A DNA stretch of 64,000 bases, taken from a virus. Every line of letters starts with the position of its first letter. Position 1 is the first letter of the stretch. Below are positions 40,981-59,302 of the stretch, one piece after another. The stretch spans positions 88,053 to 152,052 of IMG/VR virus record IMGVR_UViG_3300022689_000474. One strand, given 5' to 3'. The translations under genes and the position numbers were made by a program. The notes beneath the pieces were generated by a model. It made no database searches. It was not told the DNA's origin and saw only the letters and a list, made by a program, of their open reading frames with translations.

Positions 40981-41000
40981 AAATATAAATACATAAATAA

Positions 41001-41020: not shown

Positions 41021-41054
41021 TGAACAAATATACTAAATTAATATATAGTACAAT

Positions 41055-41089: not shown

Positions 41090-41254
41090 ATGGCGAATAA
41101 AAGAATCAATAGAGTGCAATGTTGTATCAGCTTAGCACCACATGTACTAGATAAATTAAATGATTATGCGGAGAAACTTTGTTACCCAAAATCAGTAATG
41201 GTAGATATGGCTTTAAGAGAATACTTTAAACAATTAGATGAAGAGGAGAAATGA
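41090..41254 (+). CDS. Ribbon-helix-helix (CopG/Arc-type) DNA-binding protein, 54 aa
   Basis: The frame starts at ATG 41090 and ends with TGA 41252-41254, whose first bases overlap the ATG of the polymerase gene (ATGA). The protein begins MANKRINRVQCCISLAPHVL: a short basic strand followed by two helices (APHVLDKLNDYAEKL and YPKSVMVDMALREYFKQL). This is the RHH layout, with a turn where the family usually has a G/N-x-S-R/K box (here YPKS). RHH dimers bind short palindromes and often repress their own promoter or act in plasmid copy control. The tight coupling to the polymerase gene suggests it controls that enzyme or binds the nearby repeats. Confidence 0.8.
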   Translation: MANKRINRVQCCISLAPHVLDKLNDYAEKLCYPKSVMVDMALREYFKQLDEEEK

Positions 41255-43752
41255 AGAATATTACTAATAATATAACCACAATATCAATAGATGCAGAGTG
41301 GGTTAAAGATACCTTCTTAACAGTACAGATGGCATGTAGTGATGAAAAAGGTAGAATAGAAAAATATTATATATTCTGTGATAATGAAGAATATTTAGTT
41401 CAGTGTCCTAAAGAATTCAAAGGAGTTAATGTAGAGAAAGTATTTTATCCAATAGGATATATGGGTATATTAGATTACTTTGAATCATTGCCAAAACAAT
41501 TAGATTGTCTATTCTTTTATTCTCCTAGAGATATAGAAAGTTTCTTAGGACCTGAAGTATGGTCTTCTTTATTACTCGGAGGTAAAGTTGTTAAAAGGAG
41601 AAATCTTAATATCTCTCCATATTATCTAGAAGATAAAGAATGTACTTTAAGGTTTGTAGACTTATATGGGAGATTTAGTTGCTCCCTAGAAAAAGCTTAT
41701 AACCTAATGGGTATTGATACAAGTAGAGGTAAAGATTATATCTCTACACTTAATATAGATAAATCTAGAATGGATTTATTTATGAAAGAATATCCTTTGG
41801 AGTTCTTTGAATATTCTTTATCTGATTTAGGTCTACATGAATTAAGCATTAAATTATTAAATTTAATATCTGAATTATTAGATGAATGTTTCTCTATAGA
41901 AGATTTATATGAATCTATCAGAGATTATCCTGGTACTATAGGTAGATTGGTTTCTGATGTCTTCTTAAAGTTTATTAGTATACAATATCCTGATTTATTA
42001 CGGTCTTCTTGTCTTCTATCTATTACTCCTAATGATAGGAAAAGTAATAGACTTAATTCACTTATAAACTCTTTAATATCTGGTCAAGACCCATATCTTA
42101 TTTCTAAAAGAATAGAAAAATGTGGAGATGTTATTCATGGTTTGGGTATGTGCTCTATTCCTGCTTTCTTTAGCGGTCATTATGGTCTAAATGATACTAG
42201 TCCTTATGGAGCTATAGTTCAAGGAGGAAGGGCTATTAAGGAAGACTCTGAGAATACTATATATAAACATATATTAGATATAGACCTACAATCAGCATAT
42301 GGTACTTCTTTAAAGAAGTTTGATTATCCTATAGGTATTCCATCTATCTATAGTAATAGTAATCATTCATCTAAAAGGATTACATTGAAACAATTCTTAA
42401 ATCAATATAGTTCAGAATTAATAGATGGATTATATGTCATAGCGGTCTCAGGAAGACTTAAATATCATCAAGATCTTATCTTTTCTAAATACGGTCTTAG
42501 TTCACATAAGATAGGTTCTAAGATTTTGGGTAATTTATATGAAGAAGATGATGGTATTAATGGAAGATTAGGAGGTAAATTCTTACTTACATCTAAAGAG
42601 ATTAGATTGGGATTTATTACTTCTCATATGTTGGAGATAGTTAGAAATATGTCTTCTAATCAAGAATATAGAGATTGGATGGATCTTAAAGTAGATGTGG
42701 CTATTTATTATCCAAAGAGTCATGAAATGTCTATAGATAAGTGGGCTGATTATCACTCAGATATTTCTAATATAGGTGAATTAACTCCTCATAATGATAA
42801 TAGATCTAGATATTGGTGTAGATTTCCACTTAATAAATTTATAGATAATATTATAGAAAAAAGATTATATTATAAAGCTAAAAGAAATGAATCTCCTATA
42901 TTTGATGCTAAACAATCTTTACTTAAATTATTTATTAATACCCTTTATGGAGATTTAGCTTCCCCTTACTTTCTCTTTGGAAATACAGTAGTTTCTAATA
43001 ATATTACTAGTTCAGTTAGAGCTGGCTCTTGGATAATGAGTAAAGCTTTAGGAACTAAATTAACTGTTACTGATGGAGGTACTTATACCCCTTATTCTGT
43101 CCCTTTCTTTAGGAATCATCTTAAAACTTTTAGAAGACCGTCTTTATCTAAATTATATAAAAAGAATTCTAGATGGCAGCTCTCTGTAGAGTACAAATCA
43201 TTAATAGATGAAAGTATAGAATCTATATTAAGAAAAGAAAATGCTCAAGAACTATTAGATAATTTAGCTCTTGAACATATAAATAGATTCTGTAGTTTAT
43301 ATAATATATCTTTTCCTTTTAAGGTAGAACATAAACTAGAGAATTCAGGATCCCTTATGGTTACTAATCCTTATGGGAAAGTAGATTATATTATATATAC
43401 CTATTATAATACAGAAGTTATTAAAATTAGGGGTGTAGAATCATATAATTATGATAATCATCCTAAAGTAGAGTTCTTAAGGGCTTTAGCCCAAAATAGA
43501 CCTACTAAATTCTCTGCCAATCAATTGATTCATATTGTAGGTATTAATGAATATATCAAAGGAGTATATAGAAAGATGCCAGGACATGAAGTTATGATTG
43601 AATATATTTATAAACCAAATAGTAATGGGGGGTCTATTTATGAAGATTATCTATCTTATCTAAAAGCAGAAGAAGCTCATAAGAAAAGAATTAAAAGATA
43701 TGAATCTAAATGGAAAGGTTTAGAACTTAATATTATACCTCCTTTTAATTAA
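41251..43752 (+). CDS. Family-B-type DNA polymerase with 3'-5' exonuclease domain
   Basis: The 833-residue protein has an N-terminal DEDD exonuclease (D14 and E16 in SIDAEW; YSLSDLG near residue 190 as Exo III). Polymerase motif A is D345-LQSAY350 in the setting ILDIDLQSAYGTSL, motif B is K559-LFI-N563-TLY-G567, and motif C is D608 in LTVTDGG. In motif C the usual DTDS is VTDG, so the catalytic second Asp is kept but the first Asp and the Ser are lost. A KVDYI....IKIRGVES block resembles the thumb motif. It resembles the organellar/viral PolB_2 group rather than cellular PolB. A GAGGAG ribosome site lies 2 bases before its start inside the RHH gene. Its end overlaps the ThyX gene by 4 bases, tail to tail. 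A second polymerase (family A) is at 56966. Confidence 0.8.
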   Translation: MKNITNNITTISIDAEWVKDTFLTVQMACSDEKGRIEKYYIFCDNEEYLVQCPKEFKGVNVEKVFYPIGYMGILDYFESLPKQLDCLFFYSPRDIESFLGPEVWSSLLLGGKVVKRRNLNISPYYLEDKECTLRFVDLYGRFSCSLEKAYNLMGIDTSRGKDYISTLNIDKSRMDLFMKEYPLEFFEYSLSDLGLHELSIKLLNLISELLDECFSIEDLYESIRDYPGTIGRLVSDVFLKFISIQYPDLLRSSCLLSITPNDRKSNRLNSLINSLISGQDPYLISKRIEKCGDVIHGLGMCSIPAFFSGHYGLNDTSPYGAIVQGGRAIKEDSENTIYKHILDIDLQSAYGTSLKKFDYPIGIPSIYSNSNHSSKRITLKQFLNQYSSELIDGLYVIAVSGRLKYHQDLIFSKYGLSSHKIGSKILGNLYEEDDGINGRLGGKFLLTSKEIRLGFITSHMLEIVRNMSSNQEYRDWMDLKVDVAIYYPKSHEMSIDKWADYHSDISNIGELTPHNDNRSRYWCRFPLNKFIDNIIEKRLYYKAKRNESPIFDAKQSLLKLFINTLYGDLASPYFLFGNTVVSNNITSSVRAGSWIMSKALGTKLTVTDGGTYTPYSVPFFRNHLKTFRRPSLSKLYKKNSRWQLSVEYKSLIDESIESILRKENAQELLDNLALEHINRFCSLYNISFPFKVEHKLENSGSLMVTNPYGKVDYIIYTYYNTEVIKIRGVESYNYDNHPKVEFLRALAQNRPTKFSANQLIHIVGINEYIKGVYRKMPGHEVMIEYIYKPNSNGGSIYEDYLSYLKAEEAHKKRIKRYESKWKGLELNIIPPFN

Positions 43753-45236
43753 CCTCTACTTAAGAACTCTTCTTTACTATATATATCTGGATATTCAATT
43801 ATATTATCTAAATGTTTAAATAGATTTATATTCTTTATAGCTGATTTAGATAAATAATAACTAAACATCCTATAACTGATATGTCCACCTACTTTACCTC
43901 TTAGACTTATTAGATATAAAAGTCTATTTATATCTAAAGATATATAATAATTAGTTCTATAGGCTTTAGGTAATAAATATTTAATTTTATTTATATCAAT
44001 ATTTTCCCTTTTAGTATATTCTTCTAATAACTCAAAACCTTTTCTAAAAGCTTCAATATACTTTTCTCTTAAAGAACTTAATTCTTCTATTTCTAAATAT
44101 TGAGGTAATGAATATAAATGTTCGTATGTAGGATATATTTTATCTATATTAATTTCACTTAATTCACTACTTAAGAAAGGTATAAATAAACATCCTCTAT
44201 GTCTATTAATATCTGTAAGAGTACCTAAATCACTCTTACCTTTAAATATATAATTACCTATACATCTGAATTCATTATTTAATTCATTATGATGATTACC
44301 ATTTTTTATTATCCAATTACCTATCTCTTCTATTAAATTATTATTACTACTTTCTAGTTCTAATCTCTTTATATCAGGATAATATATACTAATCACTCTC
44401 TCTATATCTACTAGATCTCTATTTAATAGTTCTATTTCCCAATCTTCTATTAAAGGATCTATAGTATATAAATCTTTATATCTTTCTATTATCTCTTTTA
44501 GTTCTATATAGATATCATTACTTGGTTCTGTATGTTTTATTAAATTCTTTCCTTCTGATTCCTTTTCTTTACTTAAAATTCTTTCTAACTCTTCTCCAAT
44601 TAAATTAAATTCTTGTTCTTTATGACTCTTTAGATATTTTATTAATTTACTCCATTCTTTACCTGACTGTATTATTCCTCCTTGTGTTAAGGTTCCCATT
44701 GGAATAAAATATCTAATACAGTCTAAAGTCCTTAATTCACAAGATTTTAATTCTAATTTGTTATTACTTATATTAAATAATTCTTTGAATGAATTAAAAG
44801 TCTCTCCTTTTAGAAGATTATAAGAATCTATCCAATGACTATAAATCTCTTCTGCTTTATTATCTATATATATATGATTTAATTTCTCTTTATTATCTTT
44901 TAGGTTTATCTGTTTATCTAAATCTATATATCTTGTAGATCTTTCTTGTCCTCCTTGTAATGGACATCTATTAAATATATCTAATAATGCTAATAATGAT
45001 ACACCTTCCATACAACATGTCATATATCCCATATTCATTATGGAAGAATGACCATAATTATTTATAATTCTTTTTACTAATTCACCATTATTTTCTTTAC
45101 TAAACTTTAATACTAAATCTTCTAATGAAGTATTACTCCTTGAATATCTAGCTAATATACCTGTTATATCTTCTGGAGAACTATCAATTAGATGTAATAA
45201 TTTTAAGTCTTCTACATTACTCTTTATATATTTCAT
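43749..45236 (-). CDS. thyX: Flavin-dependent thymidylate synthase, double-length form
   Basis: ThyX makes dTMP from dUMP with FAD. At 495 residues this is about twice the common length and appears to hold two ThyX-like halves. The first has YGHSSI (FAD-site His), IFNRCPLQGGQERSTRY (ThyX box with the first RHR lost) and CIRYFIPMGTLTQGG. The second has TDINRHRGCLFIPF (RHR kept) and the LPKAYRTNYYISLDINRLLYLISLRGK block typical of the ThyX C-terminus. The halves may complete one active site. It ends the leftward replication module, 12 bases after the 128-residue gene, and overlaps the polymerase gene on the other strand by 4 bases. Confidence 0.82.
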   Translation of the reverse strand: MKYIKSNVEDLKLLHLIDSSPEDITGILARYSRSNTSLEDLVLKFSKENNGELVKRIINNYGHSSIMNMGYMTCCMEGVSLLALLDIFNRCPLQGGQERSTRYIDLDKQINLKDNKEKLNHIYIDNKAEEIYSHWIDSYNLLKGETFNSFKELFNISNNKLELKSCELRTLDCIRYFIPMGTLTQGGIIQSGKEWSKLIKYLKSHKEQEFNLIGEELERILSKEKESEGKNLIKHTEPSNDIYIELKEIIERYKDLYTIDPLIEDWEIELLNRDLVDIERVISIYYPDIKRLELESSNNNLIEEIGNWIIKNGNHHNELNNEFRCIGNYIFKGKSDLGTLTDINRHRGCLFIPFLSSELSEINIDKIYPTYEHLYSLPQYLEIEELSSLREKYIEAFRKGFELLEEYTKRENIDINKIKYLLPKAYRTNYYISLDINRLLYLISLRGKVGGHISYRMFSYYLSKSAIKNINLFKHLDNIIEYPDIYSKEEFLSRG

Positions 45237-45248
45237 TTATTCTTTGAC

Positions 45249-45635
45249 TTATATTTCGTACTTTTCAATTATTCTATTTAATATCTTAGAACGAGTTTTT
45301 AATACCTTTAAAATCTCTTTATCTTTATCTAGATTAGATTCAATAAATCTTTTAAATTTACCAGTAAAACATAAAGAATAAATTTTATTTACACCGTTAA
45401 TTTTATTTGGATTTAATTCTATTAATTTAGATTGAATATCTATATCTTCTAATTTTGTATAAATACTATTAAAACTATATATTAATTCAAAACATTCTTT
45501 AATCTTTTTATTTTCTTTTTTTTCTCTTATTAGATTTTCTAAAAAAGAAGAAGTATCTTGATCACTAATTATTAAAGAATTCTTTAACACTACCTTTTCT
45601 AATTTACTTAAATCTTTAATATGAATCTCTACCAT
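45249..45635 (-). CDS. Hypothetical protein, 128 aa
   Basis: Not recognised. It is small, basic, mostly helical and Lys/Ile-rich, without membrane segment, cysteine motif or nuclease signature. It sits between thyX (12 bases) and a 194-residue gene (4 bases), so it is clearly part of the leftward replication operon. A small accessory factor for replication is possible, but nothing specific can be said. Confidence 0.6.
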   Translation of the reverse strand: MVEIHIKDLSKLEKVVLKNSLIISDQDTSSFLENLIREKKENKKIKECFELIYSFNSIYTKLEDIDIQSKLIELNPNKINGVNKIYSLCFTGKFKRFIESNLDKDKEILKVLKTRSKILNRIIEKYEI

Positions 45636-45639
45636 TCCA

Positions 45640-46224
45640 TTATCCTTTTTCTTCTAATACTTTCTTAATGTCTAAAGGTATATAATTTAATTTATACATA
45701 AATAATGAACTGTAAGAATGACATAGTTTTATAAGTATATTCTCTTTGAATACAAATTTAAAATATGGGTATAATCTTGGATATACATTCGTATCTATAA
45801 AGTTCAAAGGATTAAATATATTATCAAAAGTATTTATTACAAATATTTCATTTCTATAAAAAGATTTAGGAGTATATAATTGTCTTATTTCCTCTTCATA
45901 TTTACTTAATTCTTCTAATATATTAAAATTATATTGAAATGTAGAGAAAGTAAATCTTAATATTAAATTATCTTTAGAGTTATCTTTACTATTTAAGTTA
46001 TCTTTAATCATTTCTGAAAGACATACTAACATATTTTCTTGTTTTAGATTAACTTTAGGATAACGTTCTAAAGAACTACCACTATAATATTTATCTATAA
46101 GTTTTAAATATATTTTAGAAGGTCTTAAATAAATAGTATATCTAACATATTCATAATCATTTCTCCAGAAAGAAGTATAAATATAATTAAAGTTAAAGTC
46201 TTTATCTATTCCTTTATAAATCAT
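45640..46224 (-). CDS. Hypothetical protein, 194 aa
   Basis: Not recognised. It is rich in Tyr, Phe and Asn with a mainly alpha/beta composition and no known motif. It overlaps the end of the primase gene by 11 bases and lies 4 bases upstream of the 128-residue gene, so translation is probably coupled to the primase. A primase partner or helicase loader would fit the position, but the sequence gives no direct support. Confidence 0.6.
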   Translation of the reverse strand: MIYKGIDKDFNFNYIYTSFWRNDYEYVRYTIYLRPSKIYLKLIDKYYSGSSLERYPKVNLKQENMLVCLSEMIKDNLNSKDNSKDNLILRFTFSTFQYNFNILEELSKYEEEIRQLYTPKSFYRNEIFVINTFDNIFNPLNFIDTNVYPRLYPYFKFVFKENILIKLCHSYSSLFMYKLNYIPLDIKKVLEEKG

Positions 46225-47593
46225 CTGTAATTGCTTTAAGAATAAAATCCACCGGGTCTATATTCTTTTTATTCATATAATCTTTTATAAATATCTTTCC
46301 CTTTTCTTTAACTTCTGTAATATTTATACAAGATACTAATCTGATAAATGATTCTACATTTATATTATTATCTAAACTTATTTCTTTCCAATAATCTAAT
46401 AATTGTTTTTTATCTTTCTCTAAACTATTCTTTAAAGACTCTTTATCTAAAGTAAAATAATCATTTACATCTTTAACTCTTTTGTTATTTATATATTCTG
46501 GAGGATACCAAATACTTATATATATATTAGGTAAAGATATTTGTAAATCATATACTTGATTATTTAATCTTGACCAACTTTTAAATTGACCAGGATATAA
46601 TATATGATCTTCTTCAAATTTATCATTATCACCTATTATTACAATACTTTTAAATTTATTTAATTTATGAACTTGGTTCTTTAGACTATTAATACCAAAC
46701 ATACTAACTGCTGGATATCCCATTTCTAATAAAGATAAAGCATCAAATACTCCTTCTGTAATATAGACTATAGAGTTATATCTTACAGAATACATATTTA
46801 GTTTATCTTCTCCAAATAAAGATTGAGATATAGATGGTAAATTTTTATAATTCTTAGTAGATTTATATCTTAAACGTAAAGGTTCACCATTACTATCTTC
46901 TGGAATATCTTTTATATATCTACCTTGAAGATGTAATAAATTACCATAATAGTCTCTTATAGGTATAATTATAGAATCTTGATAATACTCTTTACCTCTA
47001 TTACCCATAAGCCCTTGTTCTGATAATTCTTTTATATCAATACCTTTATACCTTAATATAGAAAAGTTTGGAGCAAATCCTAATTCCATCCTCTGTATTG
47101 TTATTTTATTTAATCCTCTATTATATAAATAATTTAATGCCTCTTTTCCAGATGTATCATTCCATAAACAATCTTTATATATACTTAATACTTTCTCTAA
47201 AAACTTATTCCTTATATAGTATTGATCTTCTATATCTATAATGTATCCTTTCTTTTCGAATACTAAAGAATTTAATTCATTTATAGCTTGTATGAAAGTT
47301 TTACTTTCTCTCAATCTATAAATAGCTATTATATCTAAGAATTTATCTCCATTAACTTTAGAAGGACATTTACTAGAGAAACATCTTACATTTTTCCCCC
47401 CATTTATAATATGTAATTTATTCTTTTTATTACAGAAAGGACAGTCAGTATATGTTTTTCCTTTATGAACATTTGGATATATATCCCAAATTGATAAAAT
47501 ATTATTAATTAGGTTAATCTGAGCAGATAGTTTAGATCTTTGATCAATAGAGTTAATATTTAGTAAGTCTATCTTACTCATATCTATATCCAT
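46214..47593 (-). CDS. dnaG: DnaG-type primase
   Basis: This protein would make RNA primers at the fork. Its N-terminus has a zinc ribbon, C51-P-F-C54 with C71 and C76, which recognises template sequence in DnaG and T7 gp4. The middle has a DnaG catalytic-core block (LNRG-like LYNRGLNKITIQRMELGFAPN). The TOPRIM domain has VYITEGVFDALSLLE with the catalytic Glu and IIGDND with the acidic pair. The length of 459 residues is short for DnaG, which lacks room for a DnaB-binding domain. It overlaps the SF1 helicase gene by 10 bases and the next gene by 11, indicating a tightly coupled cluster. Confidence 0.9.
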   Translation of the reverse strand: MDIDMSKIDLLNINSIDQRSKLSAQINLINNILSIWDIYPNVHKGKTYTDCPFCNKKNKLHIINGGKNVRCFSSKCPSKVNGDKFLDIIAIYRLRESKTFIQAINELNSLVFEKKGYIIDIEDQYYIRNKFLEKVLSIYKDCLWNDTSGKEALNYLYNRGLNKITIQRMELGFAPNFSILRYKGIDIKELSEQGLMGNRGKEYYQDSIIIPIRDYYGNLLHLQGRYIKDIPEDSNGEPLRLRYKSTKNYKNLPSISQSLFGEDKLNMYSVRYNSIVYITEGVFDALSLLEMGYPAVSMFGINSLKNQVHKLNKFKSIVIIGDNDKFEEDHILYPGQFKSWSRLNNQVYDLQISLPNIYISIWYPPEYINNKRVKDVNDYFTLDKESLKNSLEKDKKQLLDYWKEISLDNNINVESFIRLVSCINITEVKEKGKIFIKDYMNKKNIDPVDFILKAITDDL

Positions 47594-48777
47594 AATAGAT
47601 ACCTATTATCTAAGTAGTTTGCTTGTATGAATTCTTTAGGAGTACCTACTATCCTAACATTCTTATAATCTTTTACTCTTGAGATAATTACGTATAGACC
47701 TCCTGATAATCTTCTTAAAAAAGAATCCCCTTTAACTTTAAATTGGATACCTCCTTCTATACTAGTACCTTGTATCGAATGTACTGTACTTGCATAAGCT
47801 AATCTAATAGGTATAAATGAAATATATCCTTCTGATTTTTCTGTTAATATATCTTTATTATCTATTCTGTAATAATCAATATCTACTATCTTATTTGAAC
47901 TTAATATTTCTACTTCTACTGATCTTGGTTTCATTCTCTTAACTATACCTAAAGACCCATTTGCATATCCTTCTTTAATATTATTTACTAATGTTATTAT
48001 TAGTGCACCTTCCTTTAAAGTTAATACTTTCTGTATCCTACCACCTATAAGATCTAAAGGTGGTTTCATTCCTCCATATCTAATTTCATAATCTTTACTG
48101 AAACTATCTATTTCTAATAATTTCTTTTTATTAAAATCATTTACATCTTTATTTTTAGTAAATATAGTAGTACCTTTAAAGTTATTATCTATCTCATCTT
48201 TAAAACCTATATTATCTCCTATCCAATCAATTACTTCATCCGCCCTTCCTTTTCTTATACTCTGTAATGTTTTTATAAATTCTTTATCTGTTTGTCTTTT
48301 TACTTTCTTAAGTTTTGCTATTTTAAACTTATGCCAATACATAGATTCAAATGCAGGTTTTGTCTTTACTTTACCTTTAGTTACATGAGGTAATTGAGCA
48401 AAGTCTCCAGTTAATATTAATCCTAAATATGGATTTCTACCATCTAAATTAAAATTACTTAGAGCTAGATATAAATAATTTATTGTTAGGGCAGATGCCA
48501 TTGATATCTCATCTATTATTATATTTTGGTATCTTTGAGATATTACTCTTAATCTTCTATATATTGTTTTATTATTTACTTTCTTTGCCAATTGTATATC
48601 ATTACTATATCCTAATAAACTATTAATAGTTGTCCCTTCACTACCTATTAAAGCGGCCCTTCCGGTAGTAGCAGTCTTTATACCAAAATTACTATTCTCT
48701 TCTAATTTTCTATTGATTAATGTAGTTTTACCAGAACCAGAAGGACCAAGAATTATTTTATATAGTATTCTAGTCAT
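47584..48777 (-). CDS. SF1 helicase (RecD/Dda/Pif1-like)
   Basis: The ATP site is at residues 11-18 (GPSGSGKT). Motif II is IIIDEISMA, motif III is LTGDFAQLPHV, motif V is AYASTVHSIQGTSIEGG, and motif VI is LYVIISRVK. These are the marks of 5'-3' SF1B helicases of the RecD, Dda and Pif1 group. At 397 residues it is close to T4 Dda (about 440). It would help origin opening, fork restart or removal of bound proteins. No DnaB-type replicative helicase is visible in this window, so this enzyme, the SF2 helicase, or an unseen or host helicase must unwind the fork. It overlaps the primase gene by 10 bases. Confidence 0.9.
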   Translation of the reverse strand: MTRILYKIILGPSGSGKTTLINRKLEENSNFGIKTATTGRAALIGSEGTTINSLLGYSNDIQLAKKVNNKTIYRRLRVISQRYQNIIIDEISMASALTINYLYLALSNFNLDGRNPYLGLILTGDFAQLPHVTKGKVKTKPAFESMYWHKFKIAKLKKVKRQTDKEFIKTLQSIRKGRADEVIDWIGDNIGFKDEIDNNFKGTTIFTKNKDVNDFNKKKLLEIDSFSKDYEIRYGGMKPPLDLIGGRIQKVLTLKEGALIITLVNNIKEGYANGSLGIVKRMKPRSVEVEILSSNKIVDIDYYRIDNKDILTEKSEGYISFIPIRLAYASTVHSIQGTSIEGGIQFKVKGDSFLRRLSGGLYVIISRVKDYKNVRIVGTPKEFIQANYLDNRYLLWI

Positions 48778-48813
48778 ATTGATATAAATTAATTTAGGAG
48801 TTAGGTAATATAT

Positions 48814-50409
48814 TTAAGAATACTTATTTATCAATATTTCTTTATGATAATCAATAGGTATTAAAGTACTTTCTGAGACATTATATGTACTCTTATAGGT
48901 TTCTATTCTTTTAGAAGATTGATTCTCATAAAATATAGTATTATCTTTAAAATCTATAATAATGGTCTTCTTATCTTCTTTATATCTTAATACCCTACCT
49001 AATACTTGAAGTAAATGATTTGGTTTATAACTGACATGAGCTAATACTAAATAAGATAGATATGGTATATCAATACCAGTACCAAATAGTTTAGAAGTTA
49101 CAAATACACAGTCTATATTACCTTCCTTTATATCTTTTAATATTCTCTCTTTTTCTGCTTTACTTTTACTACTACTTAATATTCGATATTCTTTAGTATT
49201 ATCTAATTCTTTTAATATATCTAATAATTTAGAAGCATGAGATTCTTTACCATTTATAGTCTTTACTACTACTAATACAGGTGCTTGTGAATCTCTTTTA
49301 TTTATAACATCTAAAGTTATATTACATAACATTCTATTCCTATTAAAATTATGAGTTATTACTTCTCTATCTAAAGTTTGATATATATAATGCTTTTTCC
49401 TACTATCAAGATTATCTCGGCATCTAGTTAATTCATTATAAAGTTTATTAGCATGATTACTTAGTTTTACTGGAGGTACCTCATATATCCTAAATGTTGG
49501 ATCACATATATAATTCTTTTCTATAAATTCTTCTTCACTCCTATTAAATTTTATTCGACCAGTTTGAGCATATACCATAATATTCTTACTATTTGAATTA
49601 GGAGTGGCACTAAGACCTATAGAATAATCTTTATTAACACAAAGAGAAGATATTAAATATCCATCATTTCTTGGAAGGACATCTTGAGGTTCATCTACTA
49701 TCAATATCTTTATACTTTTTAGAAAGTTTAATATTTTATCAATATGTCTTCCTTCCTTTAACTTGTAATAAAAAGAATTAGCTAAAGCTATAGTTCCTCT
49801 TCGATTTATATCGAAATGACCGTCTCCAACTAAACCTATTTCTTTCTTATCTATACTCTCTTTCATCCTATCATATGTTTGATTTAATAGAAGTCTAGTA
49901 TTTACTAAATATAAAAACCTAGACTTCTTATCTAATCTTAATAATTCCATAGCTATATGAGTTTTACCTCCTCCAGTAGGTATCTTAACAGTAAGAAATC
50001 TTTCTTTTAATATTGTATCTATAGCTTCTAATTGATATGGTCTTAATCTAATATCCGAATTAGTCTCTCTAGAATTCTTTATTTTTAGTTTTGGTTCTAA
50101 AGTTTTTATAGATAATTCAATATTCAGATCATTATTTAACTCTTTATAATTTTTTATTACTTTTATAATTTCTTCTTTAAACCCTATAGGAAATATTAAA
50201 GTATTTTCATTACTACTTAATAAATAATAATTACCTTTTATATTAGTAACATTTGGACGTATAACTTTTTCTTTAAATTGAGTATCATATAGTTCTTTAT
50301 CTATATCTAAATGTACTATTTGTAATAATTGAGTTAATAATTCTCTAGTAAATGGATTTATATAAACTTTTATACTACTTTGATTTAATTGTTCTAAAAT
50401 GATCTTCAT
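48814..50409 (-). CDS. SF2 helicase (UvsW/RAD25-type)
   Basis: Motifs in order: RPYQLEAI (Q-like motif); VKIPTGGGKTHIA (Walker A); ILIVDEPQ (motif II); GLSATPN (motif III); and FVTSKLFGTGIDIPYL followed by HLLQVLGRVLRY (motifs V and VI). The layout matches the T4 UvsW kind, which remodels forks, D-loops and Holliday junctions. A Met at 50424 is in frame, but the one at 50409 has a GGAGG ribosome site 8 bases before it and begins MKIILEQ, so it is the likely start; that gives 531 residues. A terminator at 50427-50460 separates it from the upstream SSB-like gene, so its expression may depend on readthrough. Confidence 0.88.
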   Translation of the reverse strand: MKIILEQLNQSSIKVYINPFTRELLTQLLQIVHLDIDKELYDTQFKEKVIRPNVTNIKGNYYLLSSNENTLIFPIGFKEEIIKVIKNYKELNNDLNIELSIKTLEPKLKIKNSRETNSDIRLRPYQLEAIDTILKERFLTVKIPTGGGKTHIAMELLRLDKKSRFLYLVNTRLLLNQTYDRMKESIDKKEIGLVGDGHFDINRRGTIALANSFYYKLKEGRHIDKILNFLKSIKILIVDEPQDVLPRNDGYLISSLCVNKDYSIGLSATPNSNSKNIMVYAQTGRIKFNRSEEEFIEKNYICDPTFRIYEVPPVKLSNHANKLYNELTRCRDNLDSRKKHYIYQTLDREVITHNFNRNRMLCNITLDVINKRDSQAPVLVVVKTINGKESHASKLLDILKELDNTKEYRILSSSKSKAEKERILKDIKEGNIDCVFVTSKLFGTGIDIPYLSYLVLAHVSYKPNHLLQVLGRVLRYKEDKKTIIIDFKDNTIFYENQSSKRIETYKSTYNVSESTLIPIDYHKEILINKYS

Positions 50410-50426
50410 TCTTTTTTCCTCCATTT

Positions 50427-50460
50427 AAAATTATCCCGAGTTATAATAAACTCGGGATAA
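50427..50460 (-). terminator. Minus-strand terminator or attenuator between SSB-like and SF2 genes
   Basis: TTATCCCGAGTT (50431-50442) pairs perfectly over 12 bases with AACTCGGGATAA (50449-50460). In leftward RNA it is followed by UUUU (50430-50427). It lies 9 bases after the SSB-like stop codon and ends just before the helicase gene. It would let the SSB-like protein be made in larger amounts than the genes that follow. Confidence 0.8.
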
Positions 50461-50469
50461 TAAATATAT

Positions 50470-51729: not shown

Positions 51730-51778
51730 TTTGTCCCTCTTTGTTATTTCTTATCTTGAACTTTATGATTAAAAGTAT

Positions 51779-52669
51779 TTATTTATTTAATATAAACATT
51801 GTATATGCGTAGAATCTTATTATACCTTTCTTATACTTTCTATTGAAACTTTTAGTTAACTGTTTATCTATATAATTTATTTCAATTATCTTCTTTGATA
51901 TCTTATCTACTTTCTCTTTATTCGTTTCTTTATTATATCTCTTTATTAAATCTTTTTTTATTATAGATAATCTATCTTTAGTACTTCTTATAAGTATATA
52001 TAAAGTACTATCATCCATATTACTTATAGCTCTTAAACCTTCTATATTATCTTTATTGTTAATATATATTTGTATTAAATTATAATTAATACCATATGAG
52101 TATAATTGTTTTAATCTATACTCATTTAATAACTTACCTGATTCATTTATATATAATTCTAATTTCTTTCTATCTAATTTTATCTTTTCATAATCATTAT
52201 TGCAATATGAACATAATAGATCCCAACACTTATTTATATATCCTTTAATAAAATATTTGCTTATATCTTTCTTTAAATCTATATAAAAATCACATTCATT
52301 TATATGTACTATATTTATGTCAATATGTTCTAAAGAATCCCTCTTACCTTTTGTTATATTCTCTTCTGTTATTAAAAATATATGATTTTGTATATGTATA
52401 TTATCTATAGGATTCTTAATATAATATTCTATGAATTTATATATATCTATTTTTATATCTGGATTTAAGAATTTAATTATATATATATCTCTTAATATTC
52501 CTTCATCCGTTATATTTAAAGGACTTTTTATATATCTATATAATTCTTTAGGATTATCTATATTAATTGCATTAATACTATATATATTTCTATCTTTATT
52601 AAATTCTATTCGGTCTTCTATAAATTTCCTTGAAAATCCATACCCCCCTATTAATAAATTAATCTTCAT
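51779..52669 (-). CDS. Probable clamp-loader delta subunit (HolA-like)
   Basis: The 296-residue protein begins KINLLIGGYGFSRKFIEDRI, which resembles the start of delta subunits (a LLYG..-F-hhh-(E)...I pattern), followed by IFLITEENITKGKRDSLE, like the delta strand with the Asp-Lys-Arg turn. It has no Walker A, as expected for delta. The C-terminal half is all helical. It overlaps the DnaX-like gene by 11 bases, which strongly suggests that the two proteins form one complex loading the clamp encoded at 55683. Similarity to HolA is weak, so a different small helical partner is possible. Confidence 0.5.
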   Translation of the reverse strand: MKINLLIGGYGFSRKFIEDRIEFNKDRNIYSINAINIDNPKELYRYIKSPLNITDEGILRDIYIIKFLNPDIKIDIYKFIEYYIKNPIDNIHIQNHIFLITEENITKGKRDSLEHIDINIVHINECDFYIDLKKDISKYFIKGYINKCWDLLCSYCNNDYEKIKLDRKKLELYINESGKLLNEYRLKQLYSYGINYNLIQIYINNKDNIEGLRAISNMDDSTLYILIRSTKDRLSIIKKDLIKRYNKETNKEKVDKISKKIIEINYIDKQLTKSFNRKYKKGIIRFYAYTMFILNK

Positions 52670-53912
52670 CTAAACTATTACCAAGTAATCTTTCTACTAT
52701 ATTATCTCTATATTTATATTCGATACCTCTATTAACTTCTTCTTTAACTTCCCCTTTAATCTTATCTTTTTCTATCTCTTCTTTATTACATACTTCTATA
52801 TTCTTATCTTCCTTATTACATTTACCTAATACCTTAAATACATTTTTATTACTATTAGCTATAAGAGCAACTTCTATAGATATTCCTTCTTGTATACATG
52901 AATATATATCTCTTGTTAAAGAGAGTACTTCCTTCTGTTCCTTATCATCTTTTATATATAATGTATATATACTTAAATCTTCTAATATAAAATTAGTAAG
53001 AGTTTCTTCCTTAAGACCTTTAGATTTCCAAGTTTCTATAAGATGTCTACTTTCTGTACTTTTTTTATATAAACAAGCATATAACTTAATCCTTTCAGAA
53101 GGAGTACAACCTCCACCTAAAACTTCATAAATGATATCTTCAGTAATATCTTCTATACTGATCCTAGGATGAATAAGATTAAATTTACTCCAAGCTTCTC
53201 CCATAGTTTTATTCGTGAGAGAACTAAATGCATCTATAGCTTTTATATCCATTTGGGGAAATATAGATATCATTCTTTTCTTTATCTCTTTACTAGAATG
53301 AAATCCTAGTTCATAATCTTGTGCTCTTCTTCTTAAAGCTTCTGCAGTTACACTACCTATAGACTCGAGATCCATAGTAGTTAAAATCCATAATGAATTG
53401 AAGTTTCTATGTGGAGGGGGTTCAAATGCTTCTAATAACTGTTGTATTGCATTACCACTTAATTTCTGTACTTCATTAATAATGTTTATTACTCTTTGTT
53501 CTTTATTTATTATTTCTCCTTTTTCATTCTCTAATATCATTGGGGGACTTTGACTTTTAGATATTAAAGTTTCTAATATTAGTTTATCTGAAGCTTTCCC
53601 TATAGTAATACTTGTTATATTATCTTCTGATATACCTAAACATACATCACAATAACCACAAGGTTCAGAACTCCCTTTCTCTCTATTTAGACAATTTGTA
53701 CTCGATGCTATTATTTGAGCTAATGTTGTTTTACCTGTGCCTGGAGGACCATATATTAATATAAATTTGACCGGTTCATTATTCTCTATATTAAATCTTA
53801 TATTTTCTATATACTGTGGATTTATACCTATAAGATCAGACCAAGTATTAGGTCTATATTTTTCTGATAATGAAACATAAATAAAATCTTTTTTCTTATT
53901 CTCTTCTGTCAT
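52659..53912 (-). CDS. dnaX: DnaX-like clamp loader ATPase
   Basis: This AAA+ ATPase opens and loads the sliding clamp. The N-terminus SLSEKYRPNTWSDLIG is the standard start of DnaX and RFC. Walker A is G55-PPGTGKT62. A zinc module with C74, C85, C88 and C91 matches DnaX. Walker B is INEVQKLS with Glu in place of the usual Asp-Glu. The sensor block LWILTTMD and the Arg-rich EALRRRAQDYEL follow. The C-terminal 100 residues are lysine/glutamate-rich. A ribosome site fully matching the 16S tail (GGAGGTGA) lies 8 bases before the start. It overlaps the probable delta gene. Confidence 0.9.
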   Translation of the reverse strand: MTEENKKKDFIYVSLSEKYRPNTWSDLIGINPQYIENIRFNIENNEPVKFILIYGPPGTGKTTLAQIIASSTNCLNREKGSSEPCGYCDVCLGISEDNITSITIGKASDKLILETLISKSQSPPMILENEKGEIINKEQRVINIINEVQKLSGNAIQQLLEAFEPPPHRNFNSLWILTTMDLESIGSVTAEALRRRAQDYELGFHSSKEIKKRMISIFPQMDIKAIDAFSSLTNKTMGEAWSKFNLIHPRISIEDITEDIIYEVLGGGCTPSERIKLYACLYKKSTESRHLIETWKSKGLKEETLTNFILEDLSIYTLYIKDDKEQKEVLSLTRDIYSCIQEGISIEVALIANSNKNVFKVLGKCNKEDKNIEVCNKEEIEKDKIKGEVKEEVNRGIEYKYRDNIVERLLGNSLDED

Positions 53913-53920
53913 TTATAAAC

Positions 53921-53929
53921 TCACCTCCC
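53921..53929 (-). promoter_or_regulatory. Perfect Shine-Dalgarno of the DnaX-like gene
   Basis: On the minus strand the sequence GGGAGGTGA lies 8 bases before the ATG at 53912. It complements the 3' end of bacterial 16S rRNA over at least eight bases. It fixes the start and shows that the host uses normal anti-SD pairing, although many late genes here lack it. Confidence 0.8.
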
Positions 53930-53953
53930 TATTTATTTCCTAACTATAATAAT

Positions 53954-54679
53954 TTATTTTCTAAGAGATATACTTTCTAATACTTTTCTTTTTGCTAATT
54001 CATAATCTTTTACTAAGAAATAAATAGGATCTAAAGGTTCATATTCAAAAGGATAAATAACTTCTTTTGGTACTCTACTACCATCTTTCTTTATTGTATA
54101 TGACTTTATCTTACCTTTTATACAATTACTACCTATTATGGGATTATAACTTACTATAATTGGATGTTTACCAGAAAATCTAGAATAGTGAACTTTATTT
54201 CTATTCTCTTTAATACCTCCCTTTTTATCAGGTAAAAATACTTTAAATGCTTCTGAACCAGCTACTAATATAGGAGTATTTATATTAATACTAGATAGAT
54301 CTAACTTTGTCCAATCAGAACATATATTTCTATCAGATTGTTTTATATTTGCTTTATCACCCCTCTCTCCCATAGGGTTACATCTAATTACATTACCAAA
54401 TAATATATGGTTATAAAAAGGTTTATATTTATCTTCTAATTCAGGATCTTTATCAAATATATTTTCTATTATCATTGTTAAGAACCATCCTGCATTCCTT
54501 TTACTCTCGTCAGGACTTAATGATATATTCGTTCTTTCTTCTATAATAGATGGATAATCACTATATATACAAAGTAATACGTCTTTAAAAGGTACTTTTG
54601 AAGTACTATGTATAGATTTACCTGTTGATAAGGAACATTTTACACAAGATGGATCGTTATCTGGAGTTCTATAAACCAT
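53954..54679 (-). CDS. Uracil-DNA glycosylase, family-4-like (Fe-S type)
   Basis: This enzyme would remove uracil from DNA. The 241-residue protein has C12-V-K-C15 near the N-terminus and a later Cys in NICSDW that could hold an Fe-S cluster, NVIRCNPMG like the N..(K/R)CRPP block of family-4 UDG, PILVAGSEAFKVFL like the LxxLGxxAxxxhL block, and SGKHPIIVSYNP in place of the HPS motif. The first active-site motif (usually GE-PG-ED) is changed to YSDYPSIIEE, so substrate range may differ. Similar proteins occur in other large phages. It lies between the dUTPase and DnaX-like genes. Confidence 0.75.
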   Translation of the reverse strand: MVYRTPDNDPSCVKCSLSTGKSIHSTSKVPFKDVLLCIYSDYPSIIEERTNISLSPDESKRNAGWFLTMIIENIFDKDPELEDKYKPFYNHILFGNVIRCNPMGERGDKANIKQSDRNICSDWTKLDLSSININTPILVAGSEAFKVFLPDKKGGIKENRNKVHYSRFSGKHPIIVSYNPIIGSNCIKGKIKSYTIKKDGSRVPKEVIYPFEYEPLDPIYFLVKDYELAKRKVLESISLRK

Positions 54680-54711
54680 TATTTTTCTCTCTCTATTTTT
54701 ATTTATATATT

Positions 54712-54743
54712 AAAAACCTCCAGATACTTTATATATCTGGAGG
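54712..54743 (-). terminator. Minus-strand terminator between dUTPase and UDG genes
   Basis: CCTCCAGATA (54717-54726) pairs perfectly over 10 bases with TATCTGGAGG (54734-54743) around a seven-base loop. Leftward RNA continues with U5 (54716-54712). It lies 8 bases after the dUTPase stop and divides the leftward module into at least two transcription units. Confidence 0.85.
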
Positions 54744-54751
54744 ATTGTAAT

Positions 54752-55387
54752 TTAGAAGATACCTCCTGTACTTCCAAATCCTCCTCTATTTTCGGCTTCC
54801 CAATCTCTTTCTTTATCTATATTATTAATAGGATAAAGATTTACATAAGGCATAGCAATTAATTGTGCTAATCTTTCTCCAACATTAATAAAGTAACTCT
54901 CATCAGTATATGAAATAAGATTAAGATATACTTCATCTTCAGGTCCACAATAATCTGGATCTATAACTCCAACATTATTACCTAAAGTAATACCTCCTAT
55001 CTTAATAAGACTACTTCTAGGATATATAGCAAACCAAGCTAAAGAACTTTCAGGTTTAATACAGAACCCAGTCTTAACTAATTGAGCATCATACTTCTTC
55101 CTATATATAATCTCTTTACCTTCATTATCTTCTTCAATATAAAAGGAGGTAAAACCCCCTTCTATTGAAGATAAAACTTCTTCTTTATTATTTTCTGGTA
55201 GACTATTTAATTCACATACAGGTACATATTTAAATTTACCTAATTCATCTAATACTTTATGAGGATGGATTATTTTAGGTTCTGCAGCCATTAAATCTCT
55301 GCCAACACTCAAGGGAGTGCCTTTATTCATCTGTCCTTCAGGGAAATGATCTAAACATAGAATAGAAGTTTCTAATTCAAATTTCAT
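54752..55387 (-). CDS. dut: dUTP pyrophosphatase
   Basis: dUTPase hydrolyses dUTP to dUMP, keeping uracil out of DNA and feeding ThyX. All five motifs of the trimeric family are seen: LSVGRDLMA (1), YPRSSLIKIGG (2), GVIDPDYCG (3), GERLAQL (4) and NRGGFGSTG (5, the C-terminal lid). The protein is 211 residues, about 60 longer than usual, because of an insert between motifs 1 and 2 (around residues 50-90, with a Glu-rich stretch). It overlaps the end of the 99-residue gene by 4 bases and is followed by a terminator. Confidence 0.93.
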   Translation of the reverse strand: MKFELETSILCLDHFPEGQMNKGTPLSVGRDLMAAEPKIIHPHKVLDELGKFKYVPVCELNSLPENNKEEVLSSIEGGFTSFYIEEDNEGKEIIYRKKYDAQLVKTGFCIKPESSLAWFAIYPRSSLIKIGGITLGNNVGVIDPDYCGPEDEVYLNLISYTDESYFINVGERLAQLIAMPYVNLYPINNIDKERDWEAENRGGFGSTGGIF

Positions 55388-55683
55388 AAAAAATATAAAT
55401 CTAAAGAATTTTCATTACAGAATTGTTTCAACCAGTTATAAAAAGTAATGTAAGTATGATTATATAATTTGAATGAGAAAGATCTATAAATTGCTATATA
55501 CTTTAAAGGTTCTAAATAATAATGTTCCCATAGTTGTATATAAATATCAAAATCACTTTCTTTTAGATAAATAATATTAATATTAGATAAAGGTATATCT
55601 CTAAGTTTATCAGGTAATAATGTAATTACATCACAATCTTCTTTATAAGTAAGAGGATATAATATAAGTAAGGATATTGACAT
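55384..55683 (-). CDS. Hypothetical protein, 99 aa
   Basis: Not recognised. It is a small, neutral, aromatic-rich alpha/beta protein with no motif and no clear membrane segment. Its stop overlaps the dUTPase start by 4 bases and its start is at the last base of the clamp gene, so it is translationally coupled on both sides. The tight packing supports a real gene with a replication or nucleotide role, but no function can be named. Confidence 0.6.
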   Translation of the reverse strand: MSISLLILYPLTYKEDCDVITLLPDKLRDIPLSNINIIYLKESDFDIYIQLWEHYYLEPLKYIAIYRSFSFKLYNHTYITFYNWLKQFCNENSLDLYFL

Positions 55684-56948
55684 TATTCTGTTTTCACATT
55701 AGAAGGAAGATAAGTAGTGGGACTTCCATCTATAACTCCAGTTACTAATTTGAATATTAAATAACAAGGATCTTTAGGTTCTTTCATGTTTTCTATTTTA
55801 TATACATCTATCTGCATATTCGAATTCTTTAAAGAAGAATAAACTCTTGCAACCTTATCAGTCTCAGGTGCGAATAATGTAATTGGATTCCAATTTTCTT
55901 TATCTATCTGTAAAGTATTAAGAGGAATCTTACCAGCTTCTCTAGTATTTTCTCCTTTCATCTCTAAACAATTTTCTTCTATATTTAAATCCATAGTTAA
56001 TTCAGTTGTATTATCTTCTGGAGAACTATGAATTTTTACTACATTTATAAAGTCTTCTATTCTAAAACTAAAATATCCTAATCTAATGAATTTATTTCCT
56101 TTATTGAGTAAAAATCTATCTATTTGGTCATATTGTTGAGAAACAGTAGTATTATCTTTTACATATATTATTTCTCCACAACTAACTACTATTTTGAATA
56201 GATTATCTGTCTCTTCATCTTTATATAATTTAAATACTGAATCTACAAATTGAGGTTTTATAAAATCTCTAATATAAGGAGTAATCCAACATTTACTATT
56301 TTCTTTATGTACTTCAGTATTAAAATCTATAGAAACAACAATAGAAGACATATCTCCTTTAGCTATTAAACTTACTAGTCCAGAACTTTCTTTTGTTTTA
56401 ATACAAATAGGATTCCTCTTATCTAAGAAATAAATATTCCTTAAACCTTCACATAGAGGAGTCATTATTTCTTTATCTTCTTCTTCTTGTAATTTAATAA
56501 CAGAATCATTTAATATTAATTCCCATTTTCTACCTTGTTGAGTTAAACCGGACCTAACTATTCTTACATCTCCTCCATATATAGGTTTATTAATACTACC
56601 TAAAGACCCCATATTATATATAATACGACTATCTGTAGTCTTTATACTAAATACAGCTATATCATCTAATAAACTTTTATTTAATATCTTAAGATTCTCA
56701 GGTAAAACATAAACACTACCTTCTTCATCTATATCACACTCTATATATACTTTTATCTTATAAAAAAGATTATTAGAACTATTTTCTATAAATAACTTAC
56801 CTTTCTTAGGATTAGCAACTAAGGTCTCTTTTGGTAATTGACAACTTATTTTTATGGGTTCTTCTTTAAGACTTGAAGAGTTTTGACCTGCTATTATTTG
56901 ATTTAATAAGAATAAATACTTCTTTACATCTTTTATAGAAACTTTCAT
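55683..56948 (-). CDS. dnaN: Sliding clamp, DnaN-like (beta clamp)
   Basis: The clamp holds the polymerase on DNA. The 421-residue protein has the size and style of bacterial beta clamps: it starts MKVSIKDVKKYLFLLNQI, is built almost wholly of short beta strands with few motifs, and ends with a YLIFKLVTG strand followed by a short tail, like the DnaN C-terminus. A Met at 56978 is in frame, but the Met at 56948 has AAAGGA 6 bases before it and gives the expected start, so it is preferred. It lies 17 bases after the family A polymerase gene, a natural partner. The DnaN call rests on architecture, length and context, since clamps conserve little sequence. Confidence 0.7.
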   Translation of the reverse strand: MKVSIKDVKKYLFLLNQIIAGQNSSSLKEEPIKISCQLPKETLVANPKKGKLFIENSSNNLFYKIKVYIECDIDEEGSVYVLPENLKILNKSLLDDIAVFSIKTTDSRIIYNMGSLGSINKPIYGGDVRIVRSGLTQQGRKWELILNDSVIKLQEEEDKEIMTPLCEGLRNIYFLDKRNPICIKTKESSGLVSLIAKGDMSSIVVSIDFNTEVHKENSKCWITPYIRDFIKPQFVDSVFKLYKDEETDNLFKIVVSCGEIIYVKDNTTVSQQYDQIDRFLLNKGNKFIRLGYFSFRIEDFINVVKIHSSPEDNTTELTMDLNIEENCLEMKGENTREAGKIPLNTLQIDKENWNPITLFAPETDKVARVYSSLKNSNMQIDVYKIENMKEPKDPCYLIFKLVTGVIDGSPTTYLPSNVKTE

Positions 56949-56965
56949 TTTATTTCCTTTTATAT

Positions 56966-59302
56966 TTAATGTTTCCAATATGGTGCTAGTTCTCTAGATA
57001 CACCTACAATAATTTCATCTCTATTAACTCCCATCATTTCTATAATATCTCTTTCTGCATCTTCCATACATTTAACTATTTCATCTGCTATCTCTTTACT
57101 CTCATTACTAACTTCAAATATTGGTTTCATATAACCATTATCTACTTTAATATCTATTAATTTACAAGTACCTGGTATTTCACAATTATATTCATCATGT
57201 ACTACACTTAAACTCTTTATATCTTTTACTCTTTTTTTTATATATAAACATGCTAATTTAGTCATATCAGCAGCACTACCTTGTACTATTGCATTTACAG
57301 CTTTTCTTCCAGTAGATTCTGCATTATGAACACCTTTAGCATTTCTCTCCCAAATACTAATTCTTCTTCCAGAAGGAATTGTTACTATTTTTTCTACTTT
57401 ACCTCTCTCATGATTTGTCTTAAGCCATTTATTTAGATTTGGGAATCCTTTTAAATAATTATCTATTCTATCTTTAGCTTCTTCTACAGTAATATTAAAA
57501 TCTTGAGCAAATGATCTATCTGTCTTTCCATAAATAATACTAAAATTAACTATCTTTCCATGATGTCTTGGAACTACTCCATTACTATCTGGAGTCCTAG
57601 CAAACTTATTTAATTTATATAATGGAATTTCTTTAAGACTAGGAAATATAAATTTAGCTGCTTTTATATGTAAATCTGAATCAGGATTGACTACTTTCTC
57701 TTTAGTTTCAGGATTATATATATAAGGATTATCTCTCTTCTCTCTAAATGATTGAATCATTTCAGTCTCACTTGATAGATATGCTACTATTACTAACTCT
57801 TGAGAAGAATAATCAAAACTACCAAATACTCCTTCACTGGATGTAAATAAATTTCTTGGTGATACATTTATCTTATATCTTTTACTATTTTTATTTTCCC
57901 TTCCCATTATTTCTTCTGCTGATGCTTCTATCTCTATTATACTATTTGGTATATTTTGAGCATTTATCTTTGTCCTTTCGTCTTTAGAAGCACCTCTACC
58001 AGTACTAGTTCCTACTGGAAGAATAGTTAAATGTAATCTATTAGTCTTATTATCGACCATATTAATATATTTATTTATAAATTCATTTAACTTTGTAAAT
58101 TTCTTATAATTGATAAGAGATTTTATTAACTTAATTTTCTCTTCTATATTCTTTGTATACTGTTTTTGTATATATAAACTATTTTCTTTCTCTTCTGATT
58201 TATCTTTTATATTTACTTCATTATTGTTATGTTCATATAAATCTTCTATTTCTTCTTTCTTTTCATATAAATCTTGTATTTCTTTTAATACTTCTAATAA
58301 AACTTTTGATTCTGAATTAGTTATATATAAATTAGGGTCTATCTTCTTAAGGTTTTTATTTATCATTTTCACCATACCTATTGGATTATTAAAGGTGGTG
58401 ATTACTTGAGAAGGAATTACATATTCATCTTCAAATGGATCATATTTTACTGATACATTTAACCCTTTACACAGATCTAATAAACTTTCTCTTTTCTTCT
58501 TTTTTATAGTTTCCAATAATATCTCTTTTAGAGGATTATTTATTGGCCAACCATTAAACTTCATATCTGCCATTACAGATACACATTTCTGATCCAGTTC
58601 AAATGCCCACTTTTCTTTTATTAAATTACAACAAATATCTTCAATAACTATATATCCCTCTATTAATATTGATTTAAGGGGTTTATTAGTAAAGGGATTC
58701 AAGTATCCTCTAGGAGCACCTACATCTAATATAGAATATTCTAACTGTTCATCACTCAATACTTCTGGAGACCAATCAGATTTCTGTTGTGTTTTATCTA
58801 GATTGATATCAAATAGACTTCTTGCCATATCTGCTAAAGAAAGACCATTCTTTATACCTTCTTTCCAACCTTGAGAAACATATAAAGAACCTAGAGCAGT
58901 ATATGTATCATTTATATTTGAGAATTCTATATCATAAACTTTTCTCAATATGATATATTCATACATTGAATTATGACCTATAAGTTTTATTCTCTCATGA
59001 TGTAGATTCTCTAATAATTCTAATAATTCAATTATAATATCTTTAGAGATTTTATAAGTATCTATAATATAAGGACATTCCCAATCTAAACAGAATAATT
59101 GTATTAATCTAACTATTGCATTTGTATGAATTAAAGCACCCCCATCTAAAGTTTTATCTATAGGACTCGTTTCTATATCTATACCAAAATATGTAATCTT
59201 ATTATCTTTTATAGTTTTCCTAACTATGTCTTTTAAACTTGTTATATCTTCTTTATTTTCAATAATATATGTATCTGTCAGTTTGAAGTTTAATCTCTTC
59301 AT
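56966..59302 (-). CDS. polA: Family A DNA polymerase with 3'-5' exonuclease
   Basis: This is the probable replicative polymerase. Residues 35-200 form a DEDD proofreading domain, with D42 and E44 in FGIDIETS and the SILDVGA block as Exo III. The polymerase domain has motif A D497-YSSQEL, motif B K583 in RHHGKIVNFSIIYG, and motif C H702-D703-E704 in VVHDEYNC. Length is 778 residues, similar to T7 and T5-type phage polymerases, with no 5' nuclease domain. A coiled, Glu/Lys-rich insert is found around residues 330-400. A ribosome site GGAAG precedes the start. The clamp gene follows directly. The genome also encodes a family-B-type enzyme at 41251. Confidence 0.93.
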   Translation of the reverse strand: MKRLNFKLTDTYIIENKEDITSLKDIVRKTIKDNKITYFGIDIETSPIDKTLDGGALIHTNAIVRLIQLFCLDWECPYIIDTYKISKDIIIELLELLENLHHERIKLIGHNSMYEYIILRKVYDIEFSNINDTYTALGSLYVSQGWKEGIKNGLSLADMARSLFDINLDKTQQKSDWSPEVLSDEQLEYSILDVGAPRGYLNPFTNKPLKSILIEGYIVIEDICCNLIKEKWAFELDQKCVSVMADMKFNGWPINNPLKEILLETIKKKKRESLLDLCKGLNVSVKYDPFEDEYVIPSQVITTFNNPIGMVKMINKNLKKIDPNLYITNSESKVLLEVLKEIQDLYEKKEEIEDLYEHNNNEVNIKDKSEEKENSLYIQKQYTKNIEEKIKLIKSLINYKKFTKLNEFINKYINMVDNKTNRLHLTILPVGTSTGRGASKDERTKINAQNIPNSIIEIEASAEEIMGRENKNSKRYKINVSPRNLFTSSEGVFGSFDYSSQELVIVAYLSSETEMIQSFREKRDNPYIYNPETKEKVVNPDSDLHIKAAKFIFPSLKEIPLYKLNKFARTPDSNGVVPRHHGKIVNFSIIYGKTDRSFAQDFNITVEEAKDRIDNYLKGFPNLNKWLKTNHERGKVEKIVTIPSGRRISIWERNAKGVHNAESTGRKAVNAIVQGSAADMTKLACLYIKKRVKDIKSLSVVHDEYNCEIPGTCKLIDIKVDNGYMKPIFEVSNESKEIADEIVKCMEDAERDIIEMMGVNRDEIIVGVSRELAPYWKH

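Follow-up and report, generated by a model that had tools for sequence, protein, structure and literature searches.

The virus studied here, probably a large virus of cyanobacteria, encodes two DNA polymerases that belong to different families, and the sequence motifs support the view that both are intact enzymes of the proofreading type. Our analysis focused on a window of 64 kb, the right-hand part of a 152,052-bp IMG/VR virus record, in which the open reading frames for proteins of 833 and 778 amino acids that a preliminary description had reported are both present (Table 1). In the explanation that we favor, with moderate confidence, a PolA replisome copies the genome of this phage, and a replicon cassette of about 3.4 kb carrying a family B polymerase of the PolB_SITDG group has been acquired in addition.

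Table 1. Features of the polymerase cassette and of the replication module (coordinates of the 64-kb window)
Feature	Position	Strand	Basis or remark
Last two genes of the + strand module	39125..40390	+	syntenic with L040:2473-3939 (My-WqHQDG); cassette follows directly
Noncoding, origin-like region, 699 bp	40391..41089	.	longest gap in the 152-kb contig, ahead of gaps of 415 and 205 bp
Terminator-like stem-loop	40419..40439	+	just 3' of the last + module gene; count not above chance
Three iteron-like direct repeats, each of about 50 bp, with core CTGGACCGG	40606..40757	.	nowhere else in the contig
Perfect hairpin, 17-bp arms, 13-nt loop	40863..40909	.	longest-armed in the contig; exceeds shuffles
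Promoter-like TTGTTA-16-TATAAT, extended -10	40953..40980	+	ahead of the RHH-PolB operon; count not above chance
Putative ribbon-helix-helix (RHH; CopG/Arc-like) regulator, 54 aa	41090..41254	+	stop overlaps the PolB start (ATGA)
PolB_SITDG family B DNA polymerase, 833 aa, DEDDy exonuclease	41251..43752	+	motifs, alignment, AlphaFold, Foldseek
ThyX-like thymidylate synthase, 495 aa	43749..45236	-	convergent with PolB, 4-bp overlap; homologue L040:13552-15063
DnaG-type primase	46214..47593	-	PolA module
Dda/Pif1-like helicase	47584..48777	-	PolA module
DEAD/ResIII-type helicase	48814..50424	-	PolA module
Clamp-loader-like AAA ATPase	52659..53912	-	PolA module
Family A DNA polymerase, 778 aa, 3'-5' exonuclease	56966..59302	-	Pfam, motifs; presumed ancestral replicase
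UvsX/RecA-like recombinase	59959..60663	-	PolA module

Searches with the sequence of the 833-aa protein against Pfam, NCBIfam and the PDB yielded no match, and the PHROG families returned PHROG 36870, a group of unknown function, at 7e-17 together with weak DNA polymerase PHROGs. The PolB motifs and the DEDD exonuclease that the preliminary description had assigned to this protein are present and conserved, and its predicted fold is that of family B. The exonuclease is of the DEDDy type, with Exo I (D14xE16), Exo II (D137) and Exo III (Y188xxxD192), and the polymerase part contains motif A (D345-L-Q-S-A-Y350), motif B (K559xxxN563TLY566G567) and motif C (V606-T607-D608-G609), so that the family B catalytic residues are in place except for the first aspartate of motif C. 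In an alignment of 11 sequences comprising the protein and its relatives, D14, E16, D137, Y188, D192, D345, K559, N563, Y566, G567, T607 and D608 are invariant or nearly so and the T607-D608-G609 triplet is invariant; the family alignment retains the motifs as D345xxSxY, KxxxNTLYG and VTDG. Valine replaces the first aspartate of the usual D-T-D in motif C, which is the hallmark of PolB_SITDG. Protein-primed polymerases of the phi29 type have TPR insertions and go together with a terminal protein and a linear genome capped by protein at its ends; in the 833-aa protein, motifs B and C are only 41 residues apart, so that by comparison with phi29 DNAP there would be little space for TPR2, and the small plasmids that encode its relatives are circular.

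The AlphaFold (AF2) model of the 833-aa protein, for which 21 family members served as input, has a pLDDT of 76.7 and a pTM of 0.80, and predicts the exonuclease and the palm/fingers/thumb arrangement of a family B enzyme. A Foldseek comparison, already proposed as a check in the preliminary description, gave exclusively family B polymerases among the best 50 PDB matches, headed by phi29 DNAP (E=4e-8; target-normalised TM 0.59-0.62); the named entries among the best 50 BFVD matches are nearly all DNA polymerases. The full-length match of the model to PolB structures, together with the conserved residues, argues strongly for the presence of a palm domain. Judged by its predicted structure and its motifs, we regard the 833-aa protein as confirmed to be a real, intact-looking family B DNA polymerase of the divergent and uncharacterised PolB_SITDG group. 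PHROG 36870 matches not only this polymerase but also those of two further virus contigs discussed below, and could be re-annotated as a DNA polymerase family.

Membership in the PolB_SITDG group follows from the V-T-D-G sequence of motif C and from the kinship with members encoded by cyanobacterial plasmids and genomes. This group has been described from cyanobacteria and algae, and is marked by a hydrophobic residue in place of the first motif-C aspartate (Kazlauskas et al., 2020; PMC7544198); a novel POLBc subfamily that Lee et al. (2016; PMC4814812) reported from plasmids of red algae and cyanobacteria is apparently the same family. With this group, the 833-aa protein has in common the hydrophobic-T-D-G form of motif C, intact motifs A and B, the DEDDy exonuclease, the lack of an extra N-terminal domain ahead of the exonuclease, and relatives by sequence in the plasmids and genomes of cyanobacteria. 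PolB_SITDG has been published from plasmids, genomes and organelles, whereas our phage, which exceeds 150 kb, combines it with a canonical PolA. Primer-independent PolBs (piPolBs) are active despite missing the same motif-C aspartate (PMC7544198), and by this analogy the 833-aa protein is likely to be catalytically active as well.

A tblastn search with the 833-aa PolB detected ten cyanobacterial plasmids at E<=4e-11 (lowest 3e-32), and relatives are present in genomes at 23 loci (E down to 2e-80), which are cyanobacterial or belong to two Magnetococcales bins. The identity to the nearest relatives is only about 30%. When the PolB or its plasmid homologues were compared by tblastn with 50,697 phage records, there was no match at E<=0.01. 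In four small circular cyanobacterial plasmids of 4.6-6 kb (L007, L008, L010 and L015), the PolB_SITDG gene is the sole large replication-type gene. The larger plasmids L014 and L016 are linear and encode telomere resolvases, while L011, a circular record, contains a protelomerase-family gene and a terminase-like gene. These three thus combine PolB_SITDG with a telomere resolvase or protelomerase, L011 and L016 have a terminase-like gene in addition, and they look like N15-type phage-plasmids equipped with their own polymerase. The PolB_SITDG genes of the two Magnetococcales bins (L034 and L036) extend the family beyond cyanobacteria and algae.

An alignment-based scan of IMG/VR added two contigs that look like temperate tailed phages: IMGVR_UViG_3300037420_002492 (L054), with genes for an integrase, a terminase and a portal protein, and IMGVR_UViG_2788500609_000001 (L055), with an integrase, a tail sheath and a baseplate. 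In the phylogenetic tree, the PolB of the window clusters with L017-L020, L054 and L055 (SH-aLRT 99; the branches are long and the inner order of the clade is unsure), hence with prophage and integrative-element members and not with the PolBs of the small plasmids. Consistent with this placement, the PolB locus of L019 adjoins tail-collar and antirepressor genes, and the PolB gene of L020 comes directly after an integrase gene. As judged from these sequences, the closest relatives of the PolB gene belong to prophages and integrative elements of cyanobacteria. The polymerases of L054 and L055 fall into the same clade as that of our phage, and L055 also has an RHH-type gene, positioned 84 bp upstream; both contigs differ from it in carrying an integrase and in their GC content of 45-47%. 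No PolA was found within the available fragments of these two contigs.

For the 778-aa protein, the intact PolA motifs and the separate exonuclease that had been claimed were recovered as well. It matches the Pfam families DNA_pol_A (8e-48) and exonuclease (1e-17), and all residues of motifs A, B and C and of the 3'-5' exonuclease are present (D42/E44, Y189/D193, R436, D497, K583, Y591G592 and H702D703E704). The surrounding replication module is syntenic with that of Microcoleus phage My-WqHQDG, to which 13 open reading frames of the window correspond; among them are PolA, the primase, two helicases, the clamp loader, a dUTPase and the pair of genes that borders the cassette on its left. At the boundary of My-WqHQDG that corresponds to the cassette site, there is no PolB gene. 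A PolB_SITDG profile search, which detected six out of six positive controls, gave no match in My-WqHQDG (163 kb), in Microcystis phage LMM01 (162 kb) or in three further phage fragments fetched by their PolA; My-WqHQDG and LMM01 resemble our phage in their PolA but lack the PolB_SITDG gene. Since the syntenic module of My-WqHQDG contains PolA and the relatives examined are devoid of PolB, PolA is most likely the old, ancestral replicase and PolB an addition.

The cassette (40391-43752) is situated at a convergent gene boundary, between the last genes of the + strand and the replication module on the - strand, and consists of the noncoding region, the RHH-like gene and the PolB gene, in this order. 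The best direct-repeat score in the noncoding region is 37, compared with a maximum of 13 in shuffled sequences. A run of T follows the long hairpin on the - strand, and this element may consequently be a leftward terminator rather than part of an origin. A hairpin 5' of PolB as a trait of the whole family was considered and discarded, as strong hairpins were present at only 14 of 32 loci (15 shuffles each). The 54-aa protein matches Pfam RHH_3 with E=0.003, which is weaker than the curated cut-off, and its single-sequence AF2 model contains no strand. An RHH-type gene just upstream of PolB also occurs in L017 and L055, that is, in two of the six nearest relatives and in three of the seven members of the clade. 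Convincing direct repeats that might represent an insertion scar were not found on the flanks of the cassette, the longest being an AT-rich one of 12 bp. At the Nostoc prophage-like locus L019 (L019:9597-9716), two direct repeats of 52 nt with a spacing of 68 nt stand directly ahead of PolB; they are similar in length to the 50-bp repeats of our phage but differ in sequence. The ThyX-like protein on the other side of the cassette possesses two Thy1 stretches, and its homologue in My-WqHQDG comprises 503 aa.

Plasmid cop-rep operons of the CopG-RepB type have a small RHH gene directly ahead of rep and a repeat-rich region upstream. The cassette, if its small gene does encode an RHH protein, has a comparable layout. 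RepB is a rolling-circle initiator and not a DNA polymerase, whereas the replication gene of the cassette encodes a DNA polymerase. In the scheme that we favor, the genome would be copied by the PolA replisome common to related cyanophages, and the RHH protein would act as a repressor of the operon that encodes it, like the copy-number repressors of the plasmid operons. Upon relief of this repression, PolB would extend primers at the adjacent origin, using its own proofreading activity, and would thereby start a plasmid-like or early round of replication, with PolA accounting for bulk synthesis. We infer that the noncoding region serves as the origin and the RHH protein as its regulator, and the same holds for the timing of PolB action; function of PolB at a separate origin is purely inferred, and the literature consulted does not report an origin function for any member of the PolB_SITDG family.

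The PolB was probably acquired horizontally as a replicon cassette borrowed from plasmids or dormant phages of cyanobacteria. The preliminary description had offered a recently gained second replicon as one option. The gain of a replicon fits best, given a cassette with a regulator-like gene and an origin-like region and the absence of PolB from the syntenic relatives, but "recently" does not stand: the codon usage of the PolB gene is indistinguishable from that of the phage itself (z = -0.86) and, taken together with the identity of about 30% to its nearest relatives, speaks for an older acquisition. Integrase, serine recombinase, ParA, ParB and telomere resolvase genes were not found in the contig, which may be incomplete, nor were the matches to the ParA, ParB_N or ResT-TelK families expected of a phage-plasmid; nothing therefore points to a life as a plasmid or lysogen for which another replicon would be required. 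A connection to telomere resolution, prompted by the linear plasmids L014 and L016, was examined in the contig and dropped for this phage, and a link to plasmid partition or lysogeny was sought in the contig and not found. It is a tentative idea at best that we are dealing with a two-replicon virus in which a PolB_SITDG origin under RHH copy control maintains a quiet plasmid-like or early mode, followed by a switch to the PolA replisome for lytic growth. If true, PolB_SITDG would be a transferable one-gene replicon that moves among plasmids, temperate phages and large phages of the lytic type.

Other explanations for the coexistence of the two enzymes need to be weighed against an added replicon. 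The two might divide their labor within a single replication program, PolB being a specialised second polymerase without an origin of its own; initiation, synthesis of the lagging strand or of the ends, lesion bypass and recombination repair are possible roles. Retention of the polymerase and exonuclease residues in both enzymes, published accessory phage polymerases that exist beside a regular one (PMC11348598) and the long residence indicated by the codon usage of PolB are all in keeping with this proposal. We nevertheless deem it rather unlikely, as PolB is located outside the replication operon, accompanied by a regulator-like gene and a noncoding region of its own, and is in its small-plasmid relatives the main replication-type gene and not an accessory one. 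The converse assignment, with PolB as the main replicase and PolA as a repair enzyme or relic, could draw on the known swaps of phage polymerases between families (PMC11348598). It is hardly credible in the face of an intact PolA that is kept in a conserved module near the dUTPase, clamp loader, helicases and recombinase, a module arranged as in My-WqHQDG and partly as in LMM01.

Alternatively, the cassette could be a passenger without any role, a small plasmid or part of a temperate phage that came to lie at a convergent boundary where it does no harm. Its position exactly between the + and - strand modules would suit such an origin, as would the fact that the relatives examined manage without PolB, yet neither the reading frame nor any catalytic residue has been lost in a protein that is only about 30% identical to its relatives, and the codon usage is like that of the phage; an unused gene would have decayed, and a mere passenger is therefore very improbable. 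Competition with resident elements, in which PolB binds, titrates or disturbs the origins of PolB_SITDG plasmids or prophages of the host, strikes us as very improbable. Elements with the same polymerase are indeed widespread in cyanobacteria, and a common cop-rep-like module would give incompatibility, but the PolB is only distantly related to any known relative, and interference would not require a fully active polymerase.

The preliminary description took one replicative polymerase per phage to be the norm. Two families in one phage are indeed rare, but the statement is too strong in view of published cases: among 1,514 phage subtrees, 8 encode more than one DNAP, and 2 of the 8 include a single genome with two different families (PMC11348598). 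Barbaviruses possess PolB together with divPolA2, and phages with divPolA1 also have a regular A, B or C polymerase (PMC11348598). Our phage resembles these in combining two polymerase families in one tailed phage, with the second one in a separate gene context. It differs in the nature of the extra enzyme: in our phage this is an intact PolB from a plasmid/prophage group, accompanied by an upstream region of its own, whereas in the published phages it is a divergent PolA whose exonuclease does not work (PMC11348598). Phages with two polymerase families are hence already known from the literature, and so is PolB_SITDG, but in the literature searched we found neither the combination of PolB_SITDG with a canonical PolA in one large phage nor a connection between PolB_SITDG and temperate cyanophages with an RHH partner. 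Until now this uncharacterised PolB branch has been known from plasmids of cyanobacteria and algae; our data connect it to tailed phages and present it as a supplement to the complete polymerase system that the phage already possesses. Should the cassette work on its own, it would provide a compact and testable model for the gain of a second replication mode by a phage, and also for the start of interfamily polymerase swapping, in which both enzymes coexist before one of them is lost.

Several other features of the contig deserve mention. To the left of the window, an NAD-dependent DNA ligase, a second Dda-like helicase and an anaerobic (NrdD-like) ribonucleotide reductase are encoded (contig positions 2558-13665). 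A giant protein of 4838 aa (contig positions 16006-30522) contains a single SLGDFDGDPY motif, which recalls the metal site in RNA polymerases of the multisubunit type; further giant open reading frames code for 5484 aa (20953-37407) and 2610 aa (2923-10755). A placement among the crAss-like phages, considered on account of giant proteins and polymerase swapping, was dropped because PolA and synteny both point to the Microcoleus and Microcystis phages as the best relatives. The large terminase subunit (window positions 14233-18117) comprises 1294 aa, of which aa 536-618 match the N-terminal splicing region of inteins (TIGR01445; E=2e-9); "SHN" motifs like those of C-terminal splice sites occur twice, near aa 394 and aa 942, and suggest the presence of two inteins.
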